From contig NZ_JAAZTS010000001.1 of assembly GCF_019239235.1 (NCBI RefSeq), forward strand, positions 62,001 to 126,000: 64,000 nucleotides of DNA, in the 5' to 3' direction. The stretch is from Caecibacteroides pullorum (GTDB taxonomy: Bacteria; Bacteroidota; Bacteroidia; Bacteroidales; Bacteroidaceae). Position 1 is the first letter of the stretch, and each line of letters begins with the position of its first letter. Position numbers and translations under genes: made by a program. Below, one piece after another: positions 26,061 through 37,946 of the stretch. Below the pieces are notes generated by a model. The model saw only the letters and a program-made list of their open reading frames with translations. It searched no databases and had not been told where the DNA came from.

Positions 26061-26150
26061 TATAATTGAGAATTGAAAATTGAGAATGGAGAATTAAATG
26101 GAGGATGAATTTTTCATTTTCAATTTTCAATTCTCCATTTTCAATTCATT
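26061..26150. repeat. AT-rich interspersed repeat forming an inverted pair
   Basis: The motif TTGAGAATGGAGAATT is followed by an inverted copy containing AATTCTCCATTTTCAATT, filling the whole gap between fabI and the methylase gene. Related sequence occurs at 28890-28916 and 33590-33618. Confidence 0.55.
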
Positions 26151-26152
26151 TA

Positions 26153-26857
26153 ATGGAAATCGCACTCTATCTGCTGCCCGTTACCTTGGGCGACACTCCC
26201 TGGGAGAAGGTCTTGCCTGGATATAACAAGGAAATCATAGTGGGTATCCGCCACTTTATTGTGGAGGACGTCCGTTCGGCCCGTCGTTTTCTGAAGAAAG
26301 TAGACAAGGACATTGATATTGATGCCCTGACTTTTTATCCGCTCAACAAGCATACGTCTCCTGCGGATATTTCGGGCTATCTGAAACCGCTTGAGGGCGG
26401 TTTATCTATGGGAGTTATTTCCGAAGCAGGTTGTCCTGCTGTGGCCGATCCGGGTGCAGATGTGGTGGCCATTGCACAGCGCAAGGGCTTGAAGGTAGTG
26501 CCACTTGTAGGTCCTTCGTCCATCATCCTGTCAGTCATGGGTTCGGGTTTCAACGGGCAAAGCTTTGCCTTCAACGGATACTTGCCTATTGAACCAGCCG
26601 AACGCGCCAAGAAGCTGAAGCAACTCGAACAGCGTGTCTACGCCGAGCATCAGACACAATTGTTCATTGAGACACCTTATCGTAACAATAAGATGCTGGA
26701 CGATATTCTTCAGAATTGCCGTCCTCAAACGAAACTTTGCATTGCCGCCAACATTACATGCGAAGGAGAGTTCATCAAAACACGGAGCGTAAAGGACTGG
26801 AAGGGGCATACACCCGATCTGACTAAAATACCTTGCATCTTCCTGCTCTATCAGTGA
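26153..26857 (+). CDS. RsmI-like SAM-dependent methyltransferase (tetrapyrrole-methylase fold)
   Basis: 234 residues from the ATG at 26153. It has the tetrapyrrole-methylase/RsmI fold: MGVISEAGCPAVADPGADVV and LVGPSSIILSVMGSGFNGQSFAFNGYLP match the SAM-binding and substrate loops of RsmI, which methylates cytidine 1402 of 16S rRNA. The usual RsmI N-terminus (LYVVATPIGNL) is replaced by ALYLLPVTLGDTPW and the C-terminal extension is missing, so this is a shorter, diverged relative. It may be a second paralogue rather than the true RsmI. The last 7 bases overlap the convergent membrane-protein gene. Confidence 0.8.
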   Translation: MEIALYLLPVTLGDTPWEKVLPGYNKEIIVGIRHFIVEDVRSARRFLKKVDKDIDIDALTFYPLNKHTSPADISGYLKPLEGGLSMGVISEAGCPAVADPGADVVAIAQRKGLKVVPLVGPSSIILSVMGSGFNGQSFAFNGYLPIEPAERAKKLKQLEQRVYAEHQTQLFIETPYRNNKMLDDILQNCRPQTKLCIAANITCEGEFIKTRSVKDWKGHTPDLTKIPCIFLLYQ

Positions 26858-27969
26858 GCATTGTGTGTGGATAAGTTTCCGCCACATTCATCAATCATTG
26901 AAAAAACACGATTGTATTCGTCTTCGAAGCAATGGTAGAAGTAGTTCTGCCCGATGTTTTGTTCGATCTGCTGGATGGTCCATAGTTTCCCGACTTGTCC
27001 TTTGTTACGTTTCAGTTGGCTTTCGTGGTCGACGGTTATTGTGAAGACATATACCAGGCGGTTGGTCATTTCGTTTTCCAATTTATATTTGAAATTGAAT
27101 TTGAGGTCTTGCATGGATATTTCGGGCAGGACTTGACGTACCAACCGATGAATGCCCTGCTTCAGCGTTTCGCCATAGAGCAGATAGCCTTCGACCGGCA
27201 GGTCGACTTTGCCTTTTTCAAAAGAAGAGCATTGAAGCCGTGGGCAGAGGTAAAGCATACCGTTCAGCGTGACAGCTACGCGTACAAAGGGTATCATATA
27301 TTTCTGCTTCTTGCTCAAGGCATCGGAAGCCAATGCTTTGCCCACTACGTTGCCTTCGGCATTGACTATGGGGATGAAGATCGTCCGTTTCATCAGGCGG
27401 TTGAAATAGCTGATGCCTATCTGGTTGAATAGAATACTTAGGATGAATACCGCAGGCGGTGCTACGTGATGTAGAATGAAACTTGATTCGCCTTGGAAAA
27501 AGGAAGCGCCTGTCAACAGTAGGGCGAGCAAATGAATAGCGCCGAAAAGCAATACGACACGGGCCGATACGATAGTGGCTTCAACGCTTTGAGCCGACGA
27601 CTGATGCTTCCTTTTAAAAGAACCGTAGTAAGCTTTCAGCGATTTACGGTTCAGGTAGAAGAGCAGAATTAATAGTAGGGTGCCTACTTCGAGGGTGAAG
27701 GAGTACCATTGCGGCTGGCAGCTGGCGGCGTAGAAATAATAGGTGAAGGCAAGCAGAACCAGCATAGCGGTAATGCCATATAACAGAATTTGCGGCAAGT
27801 GGCTTCCTTTTCGCAAGAATGTATAGGTGGAGAGGACGATACCCAGCAGGGCGCCCGCATAGATGGCCGTACCTAGCGTGGCTAGTTCGGACAGTATCAT
27901 GGACACCAGGACGGGAATAAACCCCCATGCCATGTTATACTTGAAAGAAAGAATACTTTGTCGGCTCAT
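26851..27969 (-). CDS. Six-helix membrane protein with degenerate Nudix-like domain
   Basis: A 372-residue protein I do not recognise as a named gene. Residues 1-190 hold about six hydrophobic helices. Residues 195-372 look like a Nudix fold: FIPIVNAEGNVVGKA..., a beta-strand MLYLCPR, then a segment aligned to the Nudix box. Gly261, Glu267 and Arg275 keep the G-x5-E-x7-R spacing, but the metal-binding glutamates of the REUxEE part are replaced (Leu276, Gln279, Val280). A catalytic Nudix reaction is therefore unlikely; a ligand-sensing role is possible. It lies 27 bases beyond the lipA terminator and overlaps the convergent methylase gene by 7 bases. Confidence 0.6.
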   Translation of the reverse strand: MSRQSILSFKYNMAWGFIPVLVSMILSELATLGTAIYAGALLGIVLSTYTFLRKGSHLPQILLYGITAMLVLLAFTYYFYAASCQPQWYSFTLEVGTLLLILLFYLNRKSLKAYYGSFKRKHQSSAQSVEATIVSARVVLLFGAIHLLALLLTGASFFQGESSFILHHVAPPAVFILSILFNQIGISYFNRLMKRTIFIPIVNAEGNVVGKALASDALSKKQKYMIPFVRVAVTLNGMLYLCPRLQCSSFEKGKVDLPVEGYLLYGETLKQGIHRLVRQVLPEISMQDLKFNFKYKLENEMTNRLVYVFTITVDHESQLKRNKGQVGKLWTIQQIEQNIGQNYFYHCFEDEYNRVFSMIDECGGNLSTHNAH

Positions 27970-27996: not shown

Positions 27997-28026
27997 AAAA
28001 AGAGGCTGAGTTGTTCAGCCTCTTTT
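27997..28026 (-). terminator. lipA terminator
   Basis: AAAAAGAGGCTGA pairs with TCAGCCTCTTTT around GTTGT, starting 3 bases after the lipA stop. On the minus strand it runs into TTTTTTGTTT. Confidence 0.8.
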
Positions 28027-28028
28027 CT

Positions 28029-28886
28029 TTATTTCTTCAGGTAACGGAGTGACTTTTCCGCGTGGTAGGATGATCGTACCAGCGGGCCGCTCTCTACCTG
28101 CGTGAAGCCTTTGGCCAACCCCGTTTCTTCGTAGCGTTTGAATTGGTCGGGGGTGATATACTCGGATACGGGGTAGTGACGATGCGAGGGTTGCAGGTAC
28201 TGGCCGATGGTCATGATCTGGCAACCGGCGGCGCGAAGGTCGTCCATCAGTTCCTCTACCTCGGCGGGTGTTTCGCCCAGGCCTACCATGATGCCCGACT
28301 TGGCCGTGATGCCACTGGCGGCTATCTGGCGGATTACCTCGAGGCTCGTGTCGTAGCGGGCGGCGCTGCGCACCAGGGGGCTGATGCGGCGCACGGTCTC
28401 CATGTTGTGGCTGATGATGTCGGACCTTGCTTCAATGACCTGCTCCACCAGCTCCCTGCGCCCCTGGAAGTCGGGGATTAGCACTTCGATGGTGGTTTCG
28501 GGGTTCAGACGGCGTATCTCGCGGATGGTCTGCGCCCAGTGGGCGGCGCCTAGGTCGGGCAGGTCGTCGCGGTCGACAGAGGTCACCACGGCGTGCGAGA
28601 GCTTCATCAGCCGTACTGATTCGGCCACGTGCGTAGGTTCCTGCGGGTCGAGAGGCAGGGGGCGTCCTGTCTGTGTGTTGCAGAATTTACAACTACGGGT
28701 ACAGATGTTGCCGCCTATCATGAAGGTGGCTGTGCCCCGTCCCCAGCATTCGCCCATGTTGGGGCATCGGCCGCTGCTACAGATGGTGTGCAGGCAGTGC
28801 GACTCGACGATGCGTTTCGTCTCGGTGTAGCGTTCGTTGGCGCCGATGCTTATCTTGAGCCATTCAGGCTTGCGTACTCGTTCCAT
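28029..28886 (-). CDS. lipA: Lipoyl synthase
   Basis: A 285-residue radical-SAM enzyme that inserts two sulfurs into octanoyl groups on lipoyl domains. Both iron-sulfur clusters are visible: the auxiliary C-x4-C-x5-C (CSSGRCPNMGEC) and the radical-SAM C-x3-C-x2-C (CTRSCKFC). VTSVDRDDLPDLGA, GLGETPAEVEELM and the C-terminal VRSSYHAE are family hallmarks. It follows the DPP-IV-type peptidase gene by 36 bases filled with an interspersed repeat, and is closed by a strong terminator. Confidence 0.96.
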   Translation of the reverse strand: MERVRKPEWLKISIGANERYTETKRIVESHCLHTICSSGRCPNMGECWGRGTATFMIGGNICTRSCKFCNTQTGRPLPLDPQEPTHVAESVRLMKLSHAVVTSVDRDDLPDLGAAHWAQTIREIRRLNPETTIEVLIPDFQGRRELVEQVIEARSDIISHNMETVRRISPLVRSAARYDTSLEVIRQIAASGITAKSGIMVGLGETPAEVEELMDDLRAAGCQIMTIGQYLQPSHRHYPVSEYITPDQFKRYEETGLAKGFTQVESGPLVRSSYHAEKSLRYLKK

Positions 28887-28922: not shown

Positions 28923-31142
28923 TTAATTCCCCATTAACCATTGATTAAAGAATTCAGTCAAGCGCGTGTACAGGTGCATGCGCGTGTTGCCGCCGAAAAT
29001 GCTGTGGTTGCGGTTGGTATAGACCTGCATGTCGAACTGCTTGCCCAGCTGAACCAGATGTTCGGCATACTCGGCACAGTTCTGGTAGTGCACGTTGTCG
29101 TCGGCCATGCCGTGTACCAGCAGGAGGCGTCCGTTCAGCTTGTCGGCACGGGTGAAGGCCGACGATGCCTTGTAGCCCTCGGCGTTCTCCTGTGGCGTGC
29201 GCATGAAGCGTTCGCCATAGACGGTGTCGTAGTAGTTCCAGTCAGTCACAGCTGCTACGGCCACACCTGCCTTGAATACGGGAGTACCCTCGCTCATACT
29301 CATGATCGTCATGTAGCCGCCGAAGCTCCAGCCCCAGATGCCGATGCGGTTCTTGTCCACGTAGGGCAGGCTACCCAGGTAAAGGGCCGTCTCCACCTGG
29401 TCGCGGGCTTCTTTGACGCCCAGGTTCAGGTAGGTGCATTTCTCGAAGTCGGCACCGCGTCCGCCTGTGCCTCGTCCGTCCACGCAAACTACAACGTAGC
29501 CTTGCGAAGCCATGAACGTCTCCCAGCTGATGCCGAAGGCGTCGAGCACCTGTTGCGAGCCGGGGCCGCTATACTGGTATTGCAGGGCGGGATATTTCTT
29601 GGAGGGAGAGAAGTCGGTGGGCTTCATCATCCAGCCGTTCAGCTGGGTACCGTCGGTAGTGGTGAAGCTGAAGAATTCCTTCTTCGGCAGGTTGTATTCA
29701 GCCAGCTGGGCACGGAGCTTCTGGTTGTCTACGAGGGTGGTGAGCACCTGTCCGCGGTTGTTGTTCAGCGTGATGACCATCGGCGTGTCGAGGCTGGTGT
29801 AGCGGTTTAGGTAGTACTTCATGTCCGTGCTGAACTGGGCCGAATTGGTGCCCTGTTGCGTGGAGAGTTTCAGTTTCTTGCCTTTGCGGTCGGTCTTATA
29901 GACGGCGGTACGCATGGGGCTCTCCTCGTTGCTGGTGTAGTAGAAGGAGCCTTCCTGCGGGTCGTAACCCAAGAAATCTTTTACCTCGAAGTTGCCCGAA
30001 GTGACCTGCTTGGCCAGGCTGCCCGTCATGTTGTACCAGTAGAGGTGGTTGTAGCCGCTGCGTTCGCTGACGAAGCTGAAGTTGTTGTCGTAGAAAACGA
30101 CCTGATCGAATACGTTCTCTTTGATATACTTGTCGCTCTCGTCGCGGAGTATCAGCTTGCACATCGTGCTGCGCGGATTGGCGAAATAGAGGTCGAGGCG
30201 GTTCTGATGGCGGTTCAGTGTCATGATGGCCAGCTTTTCGGGGTCTTTGGTGAAGCGGATGCGGGGAATGTAGCCGTCTTCGTCCATCGGCACGTCGATC
30301 TTGCGGATGATGCGGCTCTTGATGTCGAACGTGTGGACGCTGACCTTCGAATTGGCTTCGCCCGTCTTGGGGTACTTGTATTCATAGGCGCCGGGATACT
30401 TCTCGTAGGCCTCGATGTGGGGCTTGTCGCCGGCAAAGACGGGGAAGGAGTAAGATTTTACTTCGCTCTCGTCCCAGCGCACAAAGGCCAGCATCTTGCT
30501 GTCGGCGCTGAACTCTAGGGCGCGGTTGTAGGAGAACTCCTCTTCGTACACCCAGTCGGGCGTGCCGTAGATGATCTTGTTGCGTTCGCCGTCCTTGGTA
30601 ACCTGACTTTCGCTGTTGCCGTAGTAACGTTTCACGAGGAAGATGTTGTTGTCGCGTACGAAGGCCACCATCGAGCCGTCCGGCGAGAATACAGGCACCT
30701 GTTGCGGTCCGCCGTCGGAGAGTTTCTCCACCACGTTGTTGATTTTCCCCTCGAGGTTGCGCTTCAGGCTGTACAGATAGTGCACGGCCGTGTACGAGCG
30801 GCGGTAGATGGGGGTCGTCTCGGTGGCGATGAGCAGCATCGAGCCGTCGGGCGAGAAGCTGTAGCTGTCGAAGCGCTTGAAGGGGCACTCGCGGGCTGTG
30901 GCGGCGTCGAACAGCACTTCCACCTGTTTGCCGGTCTTGAAGGAGTATTTGATGATTTGTGTACCTTCGGCGTTCATTTGCGAGTAGTGTTCGCCGTCGC
31001 CGGGGATGGGGATGACTCCGTAGATGTTTTCCACGCGGAACGTGCCCGTCACGACATCCTTCAGCGTGAGCGGCTTTCCGCCTTGAGCGTAGGCTGCCAG
31101 CGTCAGGAGGCAGCAGAGTAGGGTAATGCTGATTTGCTTCAT
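28923..31142 (-). CDS. Dipeptidyl-peptidase IV-type S9 serine peptidase
   Basis: 739 residues from the ATG at 31142; the frame is open further upstream but that part precedes the promoter at 31162-31194. Signal peptide (ending LAAYAQ), so periplasmic or surface. An eight-bladed DPP-IV propeller (about 40-480) is followed by an alpha/beta-hydrolase domain: nucleophile Ser606 in GWSFGGYM, Asp in HGMADDNVHYQN, His in NRNHSIFGG. Such enzymes remove Xaa-Pro or Xaa-Ala dipeptides. Complete and normal in length. Confidence 0.94.
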   Translation of the reverse strand: MKQISITLLCCLLTLAAYAQGGKPLTLKDVVTGTFRVENIYGVIPIPGDGEHYSQMNAEGTQIIKYSFKTGKQVEVLFDAATARECPFKRFDSYSFSPDGSMLLIATETTPIYRRSYTAVHYLYSLKRNLEGKINNVVEKLSDGGPQQVPVFSPDGSMVAFVRDNNIFLVKRYYGNSESQVTKDGERNKIIYGTPDWVYEEEFSYNRALEFSADSKMLAFVRWDESEVKSYSFPVFAGDKPHIEAYEKYPGAYEYKYPKTGEANSKVSVHTFDIKSRIIRKIDVPMDEDGYIPRIRFTKDPEKLAIMTLNRHQNRLDLYFANPRSTMCKLILRDESDKYIKENVFDQVVFYDNNFSFVSERSGYNHLYWYNMTGSLAKQVTSGNFEVKDFLGYDPQEGSFYYTSNEESPMRTAVYKTDRKGKKLKLSTQQGTNSAQFSTDMKYYLNRYTSLDTPMVITLNNNRGQVLTTLVDNQKLRAQLAEYNLPKKEFFSFTTTDGTQLNGWMMKPTDFSPSKKYPALQYQYSGPGSQQVLDAFGISWETFMASQGYVVVCVDGRGTGGRGADFEKCTYLNLGVKEARDQVETALYLGSLPYVDKNRIGIWGWSFGGYMTIMSMSEGTPVFKAGVAVAAVTDWNYYDTVYGERFMRTPQENAEGYKASSAFTRADKLNGRLLLVHGMADDNVHYQNCAEYAEHLVQLGKQFDMQVYTNRNHSIFGGNTRMHLYTRLTEFFNQWLMGN

Positions 31143-31161
31143 GTCTCTTTTTGTTTTTTTT

Positions 31162-31194
31162 GCAAAGATAAGCCACATTCGGCCGAATGCCAAA
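31162..31194 (-). promoter_or_regulatory. Full -33/-7 promoter for the DPP-IV gene
   Basis: Minus strand: TTTG (31191-31194), a 20-base spacer, then TATCTTTGC (31162-31170). Both boxes and spacing match the Bacteroidetes consensus. It fixes the start at 31142. Confidence 0.75.
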
Positions 31195-31440
31195 AAAGTG
31201 TCTCCGTTAAGACTTAAAATTCTGTTAACAAAACACGGATTTCGTGTTAATAAAACTAATGCACTGTTTTGCGGGTGGTAAAACGGTACTTTCGTACAGG
31301 TAAAGCGATGCTTTCTGATTGGTGATGCGGTGTTTGTTTTCTGTAGGTTGAGAGGATAAATCGATTTCAAAGACGGGGGAAAATGACGTTCCCGATGCGA
31401 ATTTGCTCCCGATTTGCTGGATACTTCTGATAAAATACCG
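31195..31440. other. Divergent intergenic region between the DPP-IV gene and hisS
   Basis: No gene is supported here. It holds interspersed repeat copy B (31261-31317, starts GCACTGTTTT, with AAAACGG) related to 20201-20257, plus the promoters on each side. Confidence 0.5.
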
Positions 31441-31449
31441 TAACTTTGT
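31441..31449 (+). promoter_or_regulatory. -7 promoter box for hisS
   Basis: TAACTTTGT matches TAnnTTTGY, 31 bases ahead of the hisS ATG. A TTTG lies 24 bases upstream of it, slightly far for a -33 box. Confidence 0.55.
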
Positions 31450-31480
31450 GGCTCGATTTTGAAATGTAACTGATACGAAT

Positions 31481-32845
31481 ATGGCAGCAAAACCTTGTAT
31501 TCCGAAAGGAACCCGCGACTTTTCGCCCATAGAGATGGCGAAGCGCAACTATATATTCAACACCATCCGCGACGTTTACCACCTCTACGGCTTCCAGCAG
31601 ATAGAGACACCCGCCATGGAGATGCTCTCCACGCTGATGGGCAAGTATGGCGAAGAGGGCGACAAGCTCCTGTTCAAGATACAGAATTCCGGCGACTACT
31701 TCTCCGGCCTGACCGACGAGGAACTGCTGAGCCGCAATGCTTCCAAGCTGGCTTGCAAGTTCTGCGAGAAGGGCTTGCGCTACGACTTGACCGTGCCCTT
31801 TGCGCGCTACGTGGTGATGCATCGCGACGAGCTGACGTTCCCCTTCAAGCGCTACCAGATACAGCCTGTATGGCGTGCCGACCGTCCGCAGAAGGGACGC
31901 TACCGCGAGTTCTACCAGTGCGACGCCGACGTGGTGGGCAGCGACTCCCTGCTCAACGAGGTGGAGCTGATGCAGATTGTGGACACCGTCTTCAGCCGCT
32001 TCGGCATCCGTGTGTGCATCAAGATCAACAACCGAAAGATACTGACGGGCATCGCTGAGATTATTGGTGAGGCCGACAAGATAGTGGACATCACCGTAGC
32101 CATCGACAAACTGGACAAGATAGGCTTGGACAACGTGAACGCTGAACTGCGCGAAAAGGGCATCGGCGACGAGGCCATCGCCAAGTTGCAACCCATCATC
32201 CTGCTCAGCGGTACGAACGAAGAGAAGCTGGCTACGCTGAAAGAGGTGCTGGCCACCAGCGAAACGGGCCTCAAGGGCGTGGCCGAGACGGAATTCATCC
32301 TGACCACCCTGAAGGCGCTGGGCCTGAAGAACGAAATCGAACTGGACTTGACGTTGGCTCGCGGTCTGAACTACTACACGGGCGCCATCTTCGAAGTGAA
32401 GGCGCTCGACGTACAGATAGGAAGCATCACCGGCGGCGGACGATATGACAACTTGACAGGTGTCTTTGGCATGGCAGGTGTCAGCGGTGTGGGCATCTCG
32501 TTTGGTGCCGACCGTATCTTCGATGTACTTAACCAGCTCGACCTCTATCCGAAGGAAGCCGTGGACGGCACGCAGCTGCTCTTCATCAATTTCGGTGAAA
32601 AGGAAGCGGCTTTCTCCATGCAAGTCCTGGCGCAAGTCCGTGCGGCAGGCATACGCGCCGAAATTTTCCCCGACGCCAGCAAGATGAAGAAGCAGATGAG
32701 TTATGCCAACGCCAAGGGCATTCCTTTCGTGGCACTGGTAGGCGAGAACGAGATGAACGAGGGTAAGGTGACGCTGAAAAACATGGAAAGCGGCGAGCAA
32801 TGTCTGCTCACCCCTGCCGAACTGGTGGCAGCCATACGCAAATGA
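31481..32845 (+). CDS. hisS: Histidyl-tRNA synthetase
   Basis: A 454-residue class II aminoacyl-tRNA synthetase charging tRNA-His. Start [16 protein letters not shown] is typical. Motif 2 lies in [21 protein letters not shown], the histidine-binding motifs are [10 protein letters not shown] and GGGRYDNL, and motif 3 is GISFGADRI. The C-terminal anticodon-binding domain (about 360-454) is complete. Single gene with its own promoter and terminator. Confidence 0.97.
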
Positions 32846-33589: not shown

Positions 33590-35264
<1,675 letters not shown>

Positions 35265-35300
35265 TCGGCCGATTTCCCCTGATACATTAAACATATAAGC

Positions 35301-35338
35301 AGCCACGGTGTCTTGTCAGAGAGATACCGCGGCTTTTA
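35301..35338 (+). terminator. groEL terminator
   Basis: AGCCACGGTGTCT and AGAGATACCGCGGCT form an imperfect GC-rich stem followed by TTTATTAT. Confidence 0.7.
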
Positions 35339-35379
35339 TTATATGAACCATTAACCATTTTAACCATCAATCATTAACT

Positions 35380-36333
35380 ATGGCTTTTATCGATTATTAC
35401 CAAGTATTGGGTGTGGACAAAAGCGCCTCGCAGGATGACATCAAGAAGGCGTACCGCAAGCTGGCGCGCAAGTTTCATCCTGACCTGAACCCGAACGACC
35501 CCACGGCCAAGGAAAAGTTTCAGGCCATCAACGAGGCAAACGAGGTGCTGAGCGACCCCGAGAAGCGTAAGAAGTACGACGAGTATGGCGAACACTGGAA
35601 GCATGCCGACGAGTTCGAGGCACAGAAGCAGGCCCGTCAGCAGGCAGGTGGCTTTGGAGGTTTCGGTGCCGGAGCGCAGGGCTTCCACACGGACGGTAAC
35701 GGTACCTATTGGTATTCGTCCGACGGACAGGAGTTTACGGGCAGCAATGCAGGCGGCTTCTCCGACTTTTTCGAGGAACTCTTCGGCCATCGCGGACGGA
35801 GTGGGCGGAGTGCTCAGGGAGGTTTTCGCGGCCAGGACTATCAGGCCGAACTGAACCTGACGCTTCGTGAGGCCGCGCAAACTCATAAACAGGTGCTCAG
35901 TGTGGGCGACAAGCAGGTGCGCATCACCATTCCTGCCGGCGTGGCCAACGGGCAGGTCATCAAGCTGAAAGGCTATGGAGCTCCGGGTGTGAACGGAGGT
36001 CCTGCGGGCGATCTCTACATCACGTTTGTCATTGCCGACGATCCCGTGTTCAAGCGGTTGGGCGACGACCTGTATGTCGATGTCAATACCGATCTCTATA
36101 CGGCCCTGCTGGGTGGCGAACAGTTGGTGAATACTCTGGACGGACAGGTGAAACTGAAAGTAAAGCCAGGCACGCAAAACGACACCAAGGTGCGCCTCAA
36201 AGGCAAGGGATTTCCTGTCTATAAGCAGGAAGGCGTGCAGGGCGACCTGATTGTGACCTACCACGTCCAGTTGCCTACCAACTTGACGGAGGAACAGAAA
36301 GACATGTTCCGTAAAATTCAGCGTATGAACTAA
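35380..36333 (+). CDS. cbpA: DnaJ-class co-chaperone (CbpA-type)
   Basis: A 317-residue Hsp40. The J domain (1-70) has the HPD motif ([10 protein letters not shown]) that stimulates DnaK. A Gly/Phe-rich linker follows (about 85-125). The C-terminal substrate-binding region (about 150-310) lacks the zinc-finger Cys motifs of classical DnaJ. That layout is CbpA. It is followed 19 bases later by a CbpM-like modulator and lies just after groEL. Confidence 0.93.
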
Positions 36334-36752: not shown

Positions 36753-37946
36753 ATGATGAAAAAAACAATCCTCGTTGCCGCATTGGCATTGCTGGCCTTC
36801 GACATGTCGGCCAAGAAGAAGACTGAGCCCAAAGAAGAAGGCTTCGTTTTCACTACCGTAAAGGAAAACCCCATCACCAGCATCAAGAACCAAAATCGTT
36901 CGAGCACGTGCTGGAGCTTCTCCAGCCTCGGCTTCTTGGAGAGTGAATTGCTGCGCTTGGGTAAAGGTACTTACGACCTGTCCGAAATGTTCGTTGTACA
37001 TCACACCATGGTAGACCGTGCCGTTAACTACGTGCGCTATCACGGTGATGCTCCCTTCTCGCCGGGCGGAAGCTTCTATGACATCATGTATTGTATGAAG
37101 AATTATGGCCTTGTGCCGCAGGAAGCCATGCCGGGTATCATGTACGGCGATTCACTGCCTGTACACAACGAACTGGATGCCGTTGCCGGCGCCTATGTAA
37201 AAGCCATCGGCAAGGGCAACTTCAGCAAGCTGACCCCCGTATGGAAGAACGGTATCAGTGCTATCTACGACACTTATCTGGGCAAATGTCCCGAGAAGTT
37301 CACTTATATGGGTACGGAGTACACACCGAAGAGCTTTGCCGCCAGTCTGGGCATCAATCCTGATGACTACGTGTCACTGACTTCGTACACACATCACCCG
37401 TTCTACACCCAGTTTGCCATCGAGATTCAGGACAACTGGCGCAACGGCTTGTCCTACAACCTGCCTATCGACGAACTGATGGCCGTTATGGACAATGCCA
37501 TTCGCACAGGTTATACTTTTGCATGGGGTAGCGATGTGAGCGAACAGGGATTTACCCGTGATGGTATCGCTGTTATGCCCGATGCAGCTCGTGGTGCCGA
37601 ACTGACTGGCTCTGACATGGCTCGCTGGACAGGTATGACTGCTACGGACAAGCGTAAGGAATTGACTTCTCGTCCTTTGCCTGAAGTAGAAGTAACGCAG
37701 GAAATGCGTCAAGTTGCTTTCGATAACTGGGAAACGACTGATGATCATGGTATGGTTATCTATGGTATTGCCAAAGATCAGACCGGTAAAGAATATTTCA
37801 TGGTTAAGAACTCTTGGGGATTGAGCGGCAAATACAAAGGTATTTGGTATGCTTCCAAAGCTTTCGTTGCTTATAAGACGATGAACATCCTGGTACATAA
37901 AGATGCCGTACCTGCTGAGATCAAGGCCAAGCTGGGTATTAAATAA
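36753..37946 (+). CDS. Exported C1-family cysteine peptidase (PepC/bleomycin-hydrolase-like)
   Basis: 397 residues. A signal peptide (MMKKTILVAALALLAFDMSA) is followed by the papain-like active site: Cys in NQNRSSTCWSFSSLGFLESE, His in TDDHGMVIYGIA, Asn in MVKNSWG. The central part with LSEMFVVHHTMVDRAVNYVR is typical of aminopeptidase C/bleomycin hydrolase. Classical PepC is cytosolic and about 440 residues; this one is exported and shorter, as in other gut Bacteroides. Likely a periplasmic aminopeptidase. Confidence 0.9.
   Translation: MMKKTILVAALALLAFDMSAKKKTEPKEEGFVFTTVKENPITSIKNQNRSSTCWSFSSLGFLESELLRLGKGTYDLSEMFVVHHTMVDRAVNYVRYHGDAPFSPGGSFYDIMYCMKNYGLVPQEAMPGIMYGDSLPVHNELDAVAGAYVKAIGKGNFSKLTPVWKNGISAIYDTYLGKCPEKFTYMGTEYTPKSFAASLGINPDDYVSLTSYTHHPFYTQFAIEIQDNWRNGLSYNLPIDELMAVMDNAIRTGYTFAWGSDVSEQGFTRDGIAVMPDAARGAELTGSDMARWTGMTATDKRKELTSRPLPEVEVTQEMRQVAFDNWETTDDHGMVIYGIAKDQTGKEYFMVKNSWGLSGKYKGIWYASKAFVAYKTMNILVHKDAVPAEIKAKLGIK

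Follow-up and report, generated by a model that had tools for sequence, protein, structure and literature searches.

The locus and its gene

The window, a 64,000-nucleotide stretch of the Caecibacteroides pullorum genome, carries on its minus strand an open reading frame that runs from ATG to stop and encodes a protein of 372 amino acids (P0001), at the place given by the first-pass annotation of this DNA. The genome (G000; 3.6 Mb, 60 contigs, 99.6% complete) lies near those of 'Candidatus Bacteroides merdavium' and Mediterranea massiliensis, whose copies of the protein are 79% and 75% identical. The features of the locus are the following:

26851..27969, minus strand: whole gene, 372 amino acids, IspA/YciB-like membrane domain plus catalytically dead Nudix domain (open reading frame, homologues, predicted model)
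27385..27969, minus strand: membrane domain (residues 1-195) with six long helices in the model, a diverged homologue of IspA/YciB (PF04279)
26890..27384, minus strand: Nudix-fold domain of the YfcD/IPP-isomerase type, residues 196-360 (fold matches, dN/dS)
27121..27189, minus strand: degenerate Nudix box, residues 261-283
27998..28026, listed on the plus strand, the same stem also being readable on the minus strand: terminator-like hairpin between lipA and the membrane-Nudix gene (scan)
28029..28886, minus strand: lipoyl synthase LipA (NCBIfam lipA)
28923..31490, minus strand: DPP-IV family S9 peptidase (Pfam DPPIV_N and Peptidase_S9; start codon uncertain)

On this strand the order is DPP-IV, LipA and the membrane-Nudix gene, followed by a convergent rRNA methyltransferase-like gene (26105-26857), which the 3' end of the membrane-Nudix gene overlaps by 7 bases, and by FabI. 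Farther along the window, a GroEL-like frame and then a DnaJ-like frame were recognized by eye only (33630-36333).

The AlphaFold2 model of the protein, built with 51 sequences (mean pLDDT 84.9, pTM 0.70), contains both parts of the architecture that had been proposed from the sequence, six helices joined to a Nudix domain. The long helices span residues 13-29, 32-52, 61-79, 86-106, 120-153 and 161-195, with a short one at 108-116; the Nudix fold comes after them and is followed by a low-confidence tail (365-372). The charged loops RKGSH (53-57), NRKSLKAYYGSFKRK (107-121) and NRLMKR (190-195) suggest that both ends of the protein are in the cytosol.

A Nudix fold without its catalytic box

The first-pass annotation had staked its assignment on a Nudix-like predicted structure, and the model indeed matches Nudix folds in both Foldseek and VIA-align, which places the domain in the Nudix fold superfamily. 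The best Foldseek match is Escherichia coli YfcD (2fkb, E 7.5e-8), and VIA-align superimposes the model on the same entry with Z 17.7 over 158 residues at 2.5 A. Similar values were obtained for DR0079 (2o5f, Z 16.5) and for most entries of IPP isomerase (Z 15.9-16.7; 12.8-13.2 for three shorter entries), and the longer matches begin at residue 191-197 of the model. The relationship also shows when the protein is aligned to its soluble paralogue and to relatives. Pfam NUDIX does not match the window protein and gives one weak match (E 0.064) among 51 aligned proteins, while MutT is a sub-threshold match on the window protein in the Pfam and NCBIfam scan (0.038). The Nudix kinship is thus real but very diverged.

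The box retains G261, E267 and R275 and has lost the metal-binding glutamates of REUxEE, as the first-pass annotation had read; L276, Q279 and V280 take their places, with P282 beside these. The protein thus lacks the motif GX5EX7REUXEEXGU with the three glutamates that marks active Nudix hydrolases. The expected conservation of the 261-283 segment holds among close homologues, E267 and R275 being invariant in the 51-protein alignment, but fails at larger distances, where E267 is kept in 91 and R275 in 84 of 106 rows of dead relatives; thus, the remaining Nudix spacing is best described as residual homology.

These 106 rows come from sorting the family by its glutamate triplet, which is complete in 55 membrane fusions and 32 standalone proteins; the remaining rows have none (91), one (14) or two (1) of the glutamates, and because the triplet defines the groups, these counts describe the sorting and are no independent test. 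Rows with an absent or gapped box (the N-terminal piece of L128, L189, L190, L192 and L213) were set aside. Two proteins with two locus ids each were counted twice (L114/L221 within the 106, L144/L238 within the 32). The 106 rows, which include partial rows (the C-terminal piece of L128, L220) and long branches (L154, L191), are related to one another and collapse to 69 at 80% identity and to 42 at 60%.

The first-pass annotation had found the joining of a membrane part to a dead Nudix domain unfamiliar. The joining is real, but distant two-domain homologues keep all three glutamates at the same place as the box of the dead form (55 rows), so the window protein represents an enzyme architecture that has lost catalysis here, not a parentless combination. 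In agreement, hhalign relates the Nudix part of dead proteins (89 rows) to that of intact fusions (55 rows) with a probability of 100. Of the first-pass reading, the fold, the joining to a membrane part and the lost glutamates are therefore supported, and its nucleotide-ligand sensor or regulator is a proposal.

Replacement of the second metal site

Type I IPP isomerase has a Nudix fold and catalyzes its reaction by Cys67 and Glu116. The relatives of the window protein possess an IPP-isomerase-like second metal site, which was not used for sorting and is largely dismantled in the dead form. Intact fusions were aligned to the isomerase by HMMER; in the numbering of the fusion L036, the site consists of H217, H224, H261, E300 and E302, which we take to correspond to isomerase H25, H32, H69, E114 and E116. 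These residues are kept in 53, 53, 55, 52 and 51 of the 55 intact fusions, respectively; the 32 standalone rows keep them without exception. Among the 106 dead rows, the three histidine columns hold (i) Ile or Leu in 67 rows, (ii) Asn in 59 rows or still His in 32, the latter at position 226, and (iii) Tyr in 85 rows; the two glutamate columns hold Thr in 81 rows and Arg in 92. Another histidine of the fusions (H228) is replaced by R230 in 104 of the 106 rows. The window protein itself has L218, I226, Y262, T302, R304 and E260 in the columns of H25, H32, H69, E114, E116 and C67, so that it carries none of this isomerase residue set. Some pocket residues are retained (K254, D256, K328, W330, E351). 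Among the 42 representatives at 60% identity, R230 is found in 40, R304 in 31, E260 in 27 and T302 in 23; the support for R304 and T302 is therefore weaker after removal of near relatives.

Judged from these columns, the old metal sites appear to have been largely rebuilt rather than only eroded, with carboxylates and histidines giving way mostly to Arg and Thr. Such a replacement would be expected if the pocket bound an anion with no metal present.

E260 is a new glutamate, found in 85 of the 106 dead rows, and with it the dead form may perform different chemistry. A repurposed enzyme, with a new reaction that is metal-independent or catalyzed differently, as in IPP isomerase, would agree with the position of E260 in the Cys67 column, with the nearness of the fold to YfcD and the isomerases, with the retention of D256, E267 and E351 in most rows, and with an overlap of the gene with miaA in one family (see below). 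We consider it unlikely, since the isomerase-type metal ligands are largely gone and the share of E260 falls to that seen in the 60% representatives.

The membrane domain is related to IspA/YciB

Profile comparison identifies the membrane part as a diverged member of IspA/YciB (PF04279). PF04279 gives no match above the cut-off on the window protein and none in the 51 aligned proteins at E up to 1; the assignment comes through the intact fusions. All three fusions scanned match PF04279 (L036, 2.5e-15; L038, 1.3e-13; L039, 1.1e-12), and the same three match NUDIX (PF00293) above the cut-off. The membrane parts of 74 dead rows, that is, all dead rows minus 15 from other families, align with those of the 55 intact rows by hhalign over 175 columns with a value of 98.7 (reversed control, 0.5), and the 15 rows from other families give 97.5 (reversed control, 1.8). 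To our knowledge, E. coli YciB is without a Nudix part.

The membrane domain alone has no Foldseek match among solved structures at E 0.001 or better, and VIA-align superimposes it on helix bundles over about 100 residues at Z 8.2 or lower. Other assignments were rejected. YabQ (0.0049) and DUF350 (0.15) are sub-threshold on the window protein and were dropped because profile alignment to the IspA-Nudix fusions covers almost all of the protein; UbiA, found in 3 of the 51 aligned proteins (best 1.9e-4), was taken as membrane-helix noise.

No protein of the window genome matches PF04279 above the cut-off, the sole match elsewhere in this genome having E 0.309, and 10 of 10 further genomes that carry the dead form had no match at E 0.1; the dead form is thus the only recognizable YciB-like protein in these genomes. 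In 4 of 4 genomes with an intact fusion, the fusion was the PF04279 match.

IspA-type membrane domains without a Nudix part were observed in two genomes of the same order (L189 in G333, L190 in G141), in which the Nudix half has possibly been lost. A third such domain, L192, is truncated at a contig end.

Distribution, phylogeny and selection

We sampled 393 genomes of the order (completeness at least 80%) and scored up to five candidates in each. The full-length intact IspA-Nudix fusion is present, with its boxes read, in 54 of these genomes and the dead form in at least 33, with the reservation that the box in G349 is gapped and the row from G271 is partial; G268, G313 and G360, for example, are further genomes that may hold it. 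The dead form and the intact fusion were not found together in any of the 393 genomes among the up to five candidates per genome. Within the order, the dead form occurs under ten or more family codes. Several near-complete genomes from the same genus or family lack it (G011, G024, G328, G394 and G453, for example), so the gene is dispensable there. In a phylum-wide sample of 392 genomes, seven genomes matched at E 1e-40, and the sole full-length fusion came from G697, outside the order.

Trees of the Nudix domain were built from 28 of the 55 intact rows, 15 standalone and 35 dead rows after deletion of the three glutamate positions. In the careful tree (76 domains, unrooted), from which the long rows L191 and L154 were left out, the 33 remaining dead rows lie on one side of a branch with support 100/99 that is present in 100% of 200 bootstrap trees. 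On this subset of rows, a single clade and a single origin of the dead form are supported. The quick tree, also unrooted, groups 13 of the 15 standalone proteins together amid the intact fusions (SH-aLRT 91).

The two omitted rows are very diverged membrane-Nudix proteins with broken boxes, L154 (contig G388:C80, 4348-5550) and L191 (G402:C1, 4990-5943). In the quick tree, L154 groups with the dead rows (SH-aLRT 97) and L191 falls outside, so that the box loss in L191 is probably separate from the dead clade, a second loss of catalysis.

A standalone soluble Nudix protein with all three glutamates, each box read, accompanies the dead form in 23 of the 33 genomes. An ancestral membrane Nudix enzyme could therefore have divided into a soluble active copy and an inactive membrane copy, the latter now recruiting or allosterically controlling the former by Nudix-Nudix contact. 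The separate occurrence of dead form and intact fusion and the cluster of standalone proteins among the fusions speak for such a split enzyme, but 10 of the 33 genomes are without a standalone match at E 1e-20 among the matches listed (G107, G204, G226, G282, G307, G349, G369, G388, G417 and G468 show a single match each), and in the window genome the two genes lie on different contigs, the standalone one on C4 and the dead membrane form on C11. We regard this explanation as rather unlikely.

For 22 computable of 27 pairs (82-98% identity), dN/dS of the Nudix part is 0.013-0.150, lower than in the membrane part in 20 pairs, tied in one and higher in one. Since dS is above 1 in many cases and species recur among the pairs, these ratios are used only against decay. 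The loss of the catalytic motif and one copy split into two frames (L128) would fit a decaying pseudogene; these ratios, the full-length open frames in dozens of species and the spread over family codes make this reading highly improbable. The Nudix fold could also persist as a structural relic, a stable, ligand-free cytosolic cap for the membrane domain. The lost catalytic residues and the membrane-domain homologues without a Nudix part in two genomes are in keeping with a relic; several of the best conserved residues, however, sit at the metal-site columns of the relatives, and with dN/dS this low, we find such a role improbable.

Gene neighborhood

A DPP-IV gene lies upstream on the same strand at 63 of 74 dead loci and a LipA gene at 52 of 74, compared with 0 of 22 intact-fusion loci for either (loci with at least 3 kb upstream; many of the 74 belong to one genus). 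At one intact-fusion locus, L186, a DPP-IV match occurs on the other strand, 4.3 kb downstream. In the window, 59 bp separate lipA from the membrane-Nudix gene; of 29 relatives measured, 28 have a gap of 46-114 bp and one a gap of 312 bp. L121, with no LipA match upstream, was left out of the measurement. Such gaps are compatible with co-transcription. Of 30 relatives tested, only the two nearest have a hairpin comparable to that of the window. A lipA-linked role was considered and dropped, because LipA is missing upstream in 22 of the 74 dead loci.

The intact fusions have no common neighborhood that names a substrate; their commonest neighbor cluster occurs in 5 of 26 loci. By eye, a C1-type peptidase-like frame of the window (36753-37946) resembles the neighbor of this cluster, which is seen at L168 and other loci.

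Neighbor families were also scanned for L037 (family f60) and L032 (family f20). In f60, the dead membrane-Nudix gene and miaA share 4 bp (L037, 3985-6074; L150, 4990-7037), an overlap that suggests translational coupling. MiaA, tRNA dimethylallyltransferase, uses dimethylallyl diphosphate as substrate. In f20 (L032, L152), the upstream genes encode an ArnT-like glycosyltransferase and a protein of the GtrA type. We take the miaA, ArnT-like and GtrA-type neighbors to be genes related to prenyl diphosphates or polyprenyl phosphates, and they give a faint hint that the ligand may belong to this class.

A maintained pseudoenzyme and its possible role

The window protein is a maintained pseudoenzyme, because the dead form makes one clade, its second metal site has been largely replaced, its dN/dS is very low and its gene context recurs. 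The ancestor was a membrane-tethered Nudix enzyme that combined an IspA/YciB membrane domain with a Nudix domain of the YfcD/IPP-isomerase type. One lineage of the order has lost the metal-binding glutamates of the Nudix box and most of the second metal site, with R230, T302 and R304 becoming fixed at former metal-site places and some pocket residues being retained. This ancestry, the loss, one origin in the tree and continued selection of the dead form are supported. Many Bacteroides carry this dead but strongly conserved form, and relatives in other parts of the order have an intact-looking enzyme on a membrane anchor of the same kind; this suggests that an enzyme has turned into a sensor or regulator.

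Ligand binding is the most likely function of a pseudoenzyme that is under selection and whose metal sites have been rebuilt rather than only eroded. We give a probability of roughly one half to a metal-independent sensor of an anionic ligand that is coupled to the YciB-like membrane domain. On the cytosolic face, the Nudix domain would bind an anionic, probably phosphate-bearing, ligand with no metal and no hydrolysis; the long last helix (161-195) would relay a conformational change to the membrane domain, which in turn may act on envelope or membrane homeostasis. This sensor is favored because of the AraR precedent and the role of YciB with DcrB in membrane fluidity; its output is a guess, since the function of YciB itself is poorly known.

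A bolder version can be put forward tentatively, with much more doubt than conviction: within the order, a membrane-bound Nudix enzyme would have split into a soluble active Nudix protein and a membrane pseudo-Nudix that has a fixed Arg/Thr pocket in place of its two metal sites and serves as a metal-free ligand reader reporting to the YciB-type domain. If true, the membrane copy reads the ligand that its ancestor hydrolysed and possibly reports to the soluble enzyme.

The intact and dead versions of one membrane-Nudix architecture within one order, with metal sites replaced consistently between them, constitute a natural experiment. The substrate of the intact fusions may relate to the ligand of the dead form, so the fusions could point to this ligand. 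The dead form further opens a way to study, in gut bacteria, the envelope protein YciB, whose function is unclear.

Comparison with known systems

Three known systems resemble parts of the protein. The first is YciB/IspA/IspZ (PF04279), to which the membrane domain is homologous by way of the intact fusions; the window protein differs from it in lacking a direct PF04279 match and in carrying a Nudix domain. PMC9487459 describes YciB of E. coli as a small protein integral to the membrane that, with DcrB, takes part in the maintenance of membrane fluidity.

The second comprises E. coli YfcD, DR0079 and type I IPP isomerase, the closest folds to the Nudix domain. Unlike these, the window protein has lost all box glutamates and most of the His/Glu ligands, and it is membrane-tethered.

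The third comprises the regulators NrtR and AraR, which make a dead Nudix domain acting as a sensor a known principle. In AraR of Bacteroides thetaiotaomicron, as described in PMC4666351, a Nudix domain without two or three of the glutamates binds L-arabinose, and binding moves the 'Nudix switch'; the likeness lies in a Nudix domain that is retained for effector binding without its catalytic glutamates (PMC4666351). VIA-align superimposes our model on AraR with Z 11.6; the window protein differs from NrtR and AraR in that its best matches fall within the YfcD/IPP-isomerase part of the superfamily. Our literature searches on Nudix-septation fusions, membrane-anchored Nudix proteins of Bacteroidetes and inactive transmembrane Nudix proteins in Bacteroides returned nothing, and no description of a membrane-bound dead-Nudix version was found in the literature searched. 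NrtR and AraR carry a winged helix-turn-helix DNA-binding domain at the C-terminus, whereas the model of the window protein ends in the Nudix domain and a tail, and the protein carries a membrane domain instead.
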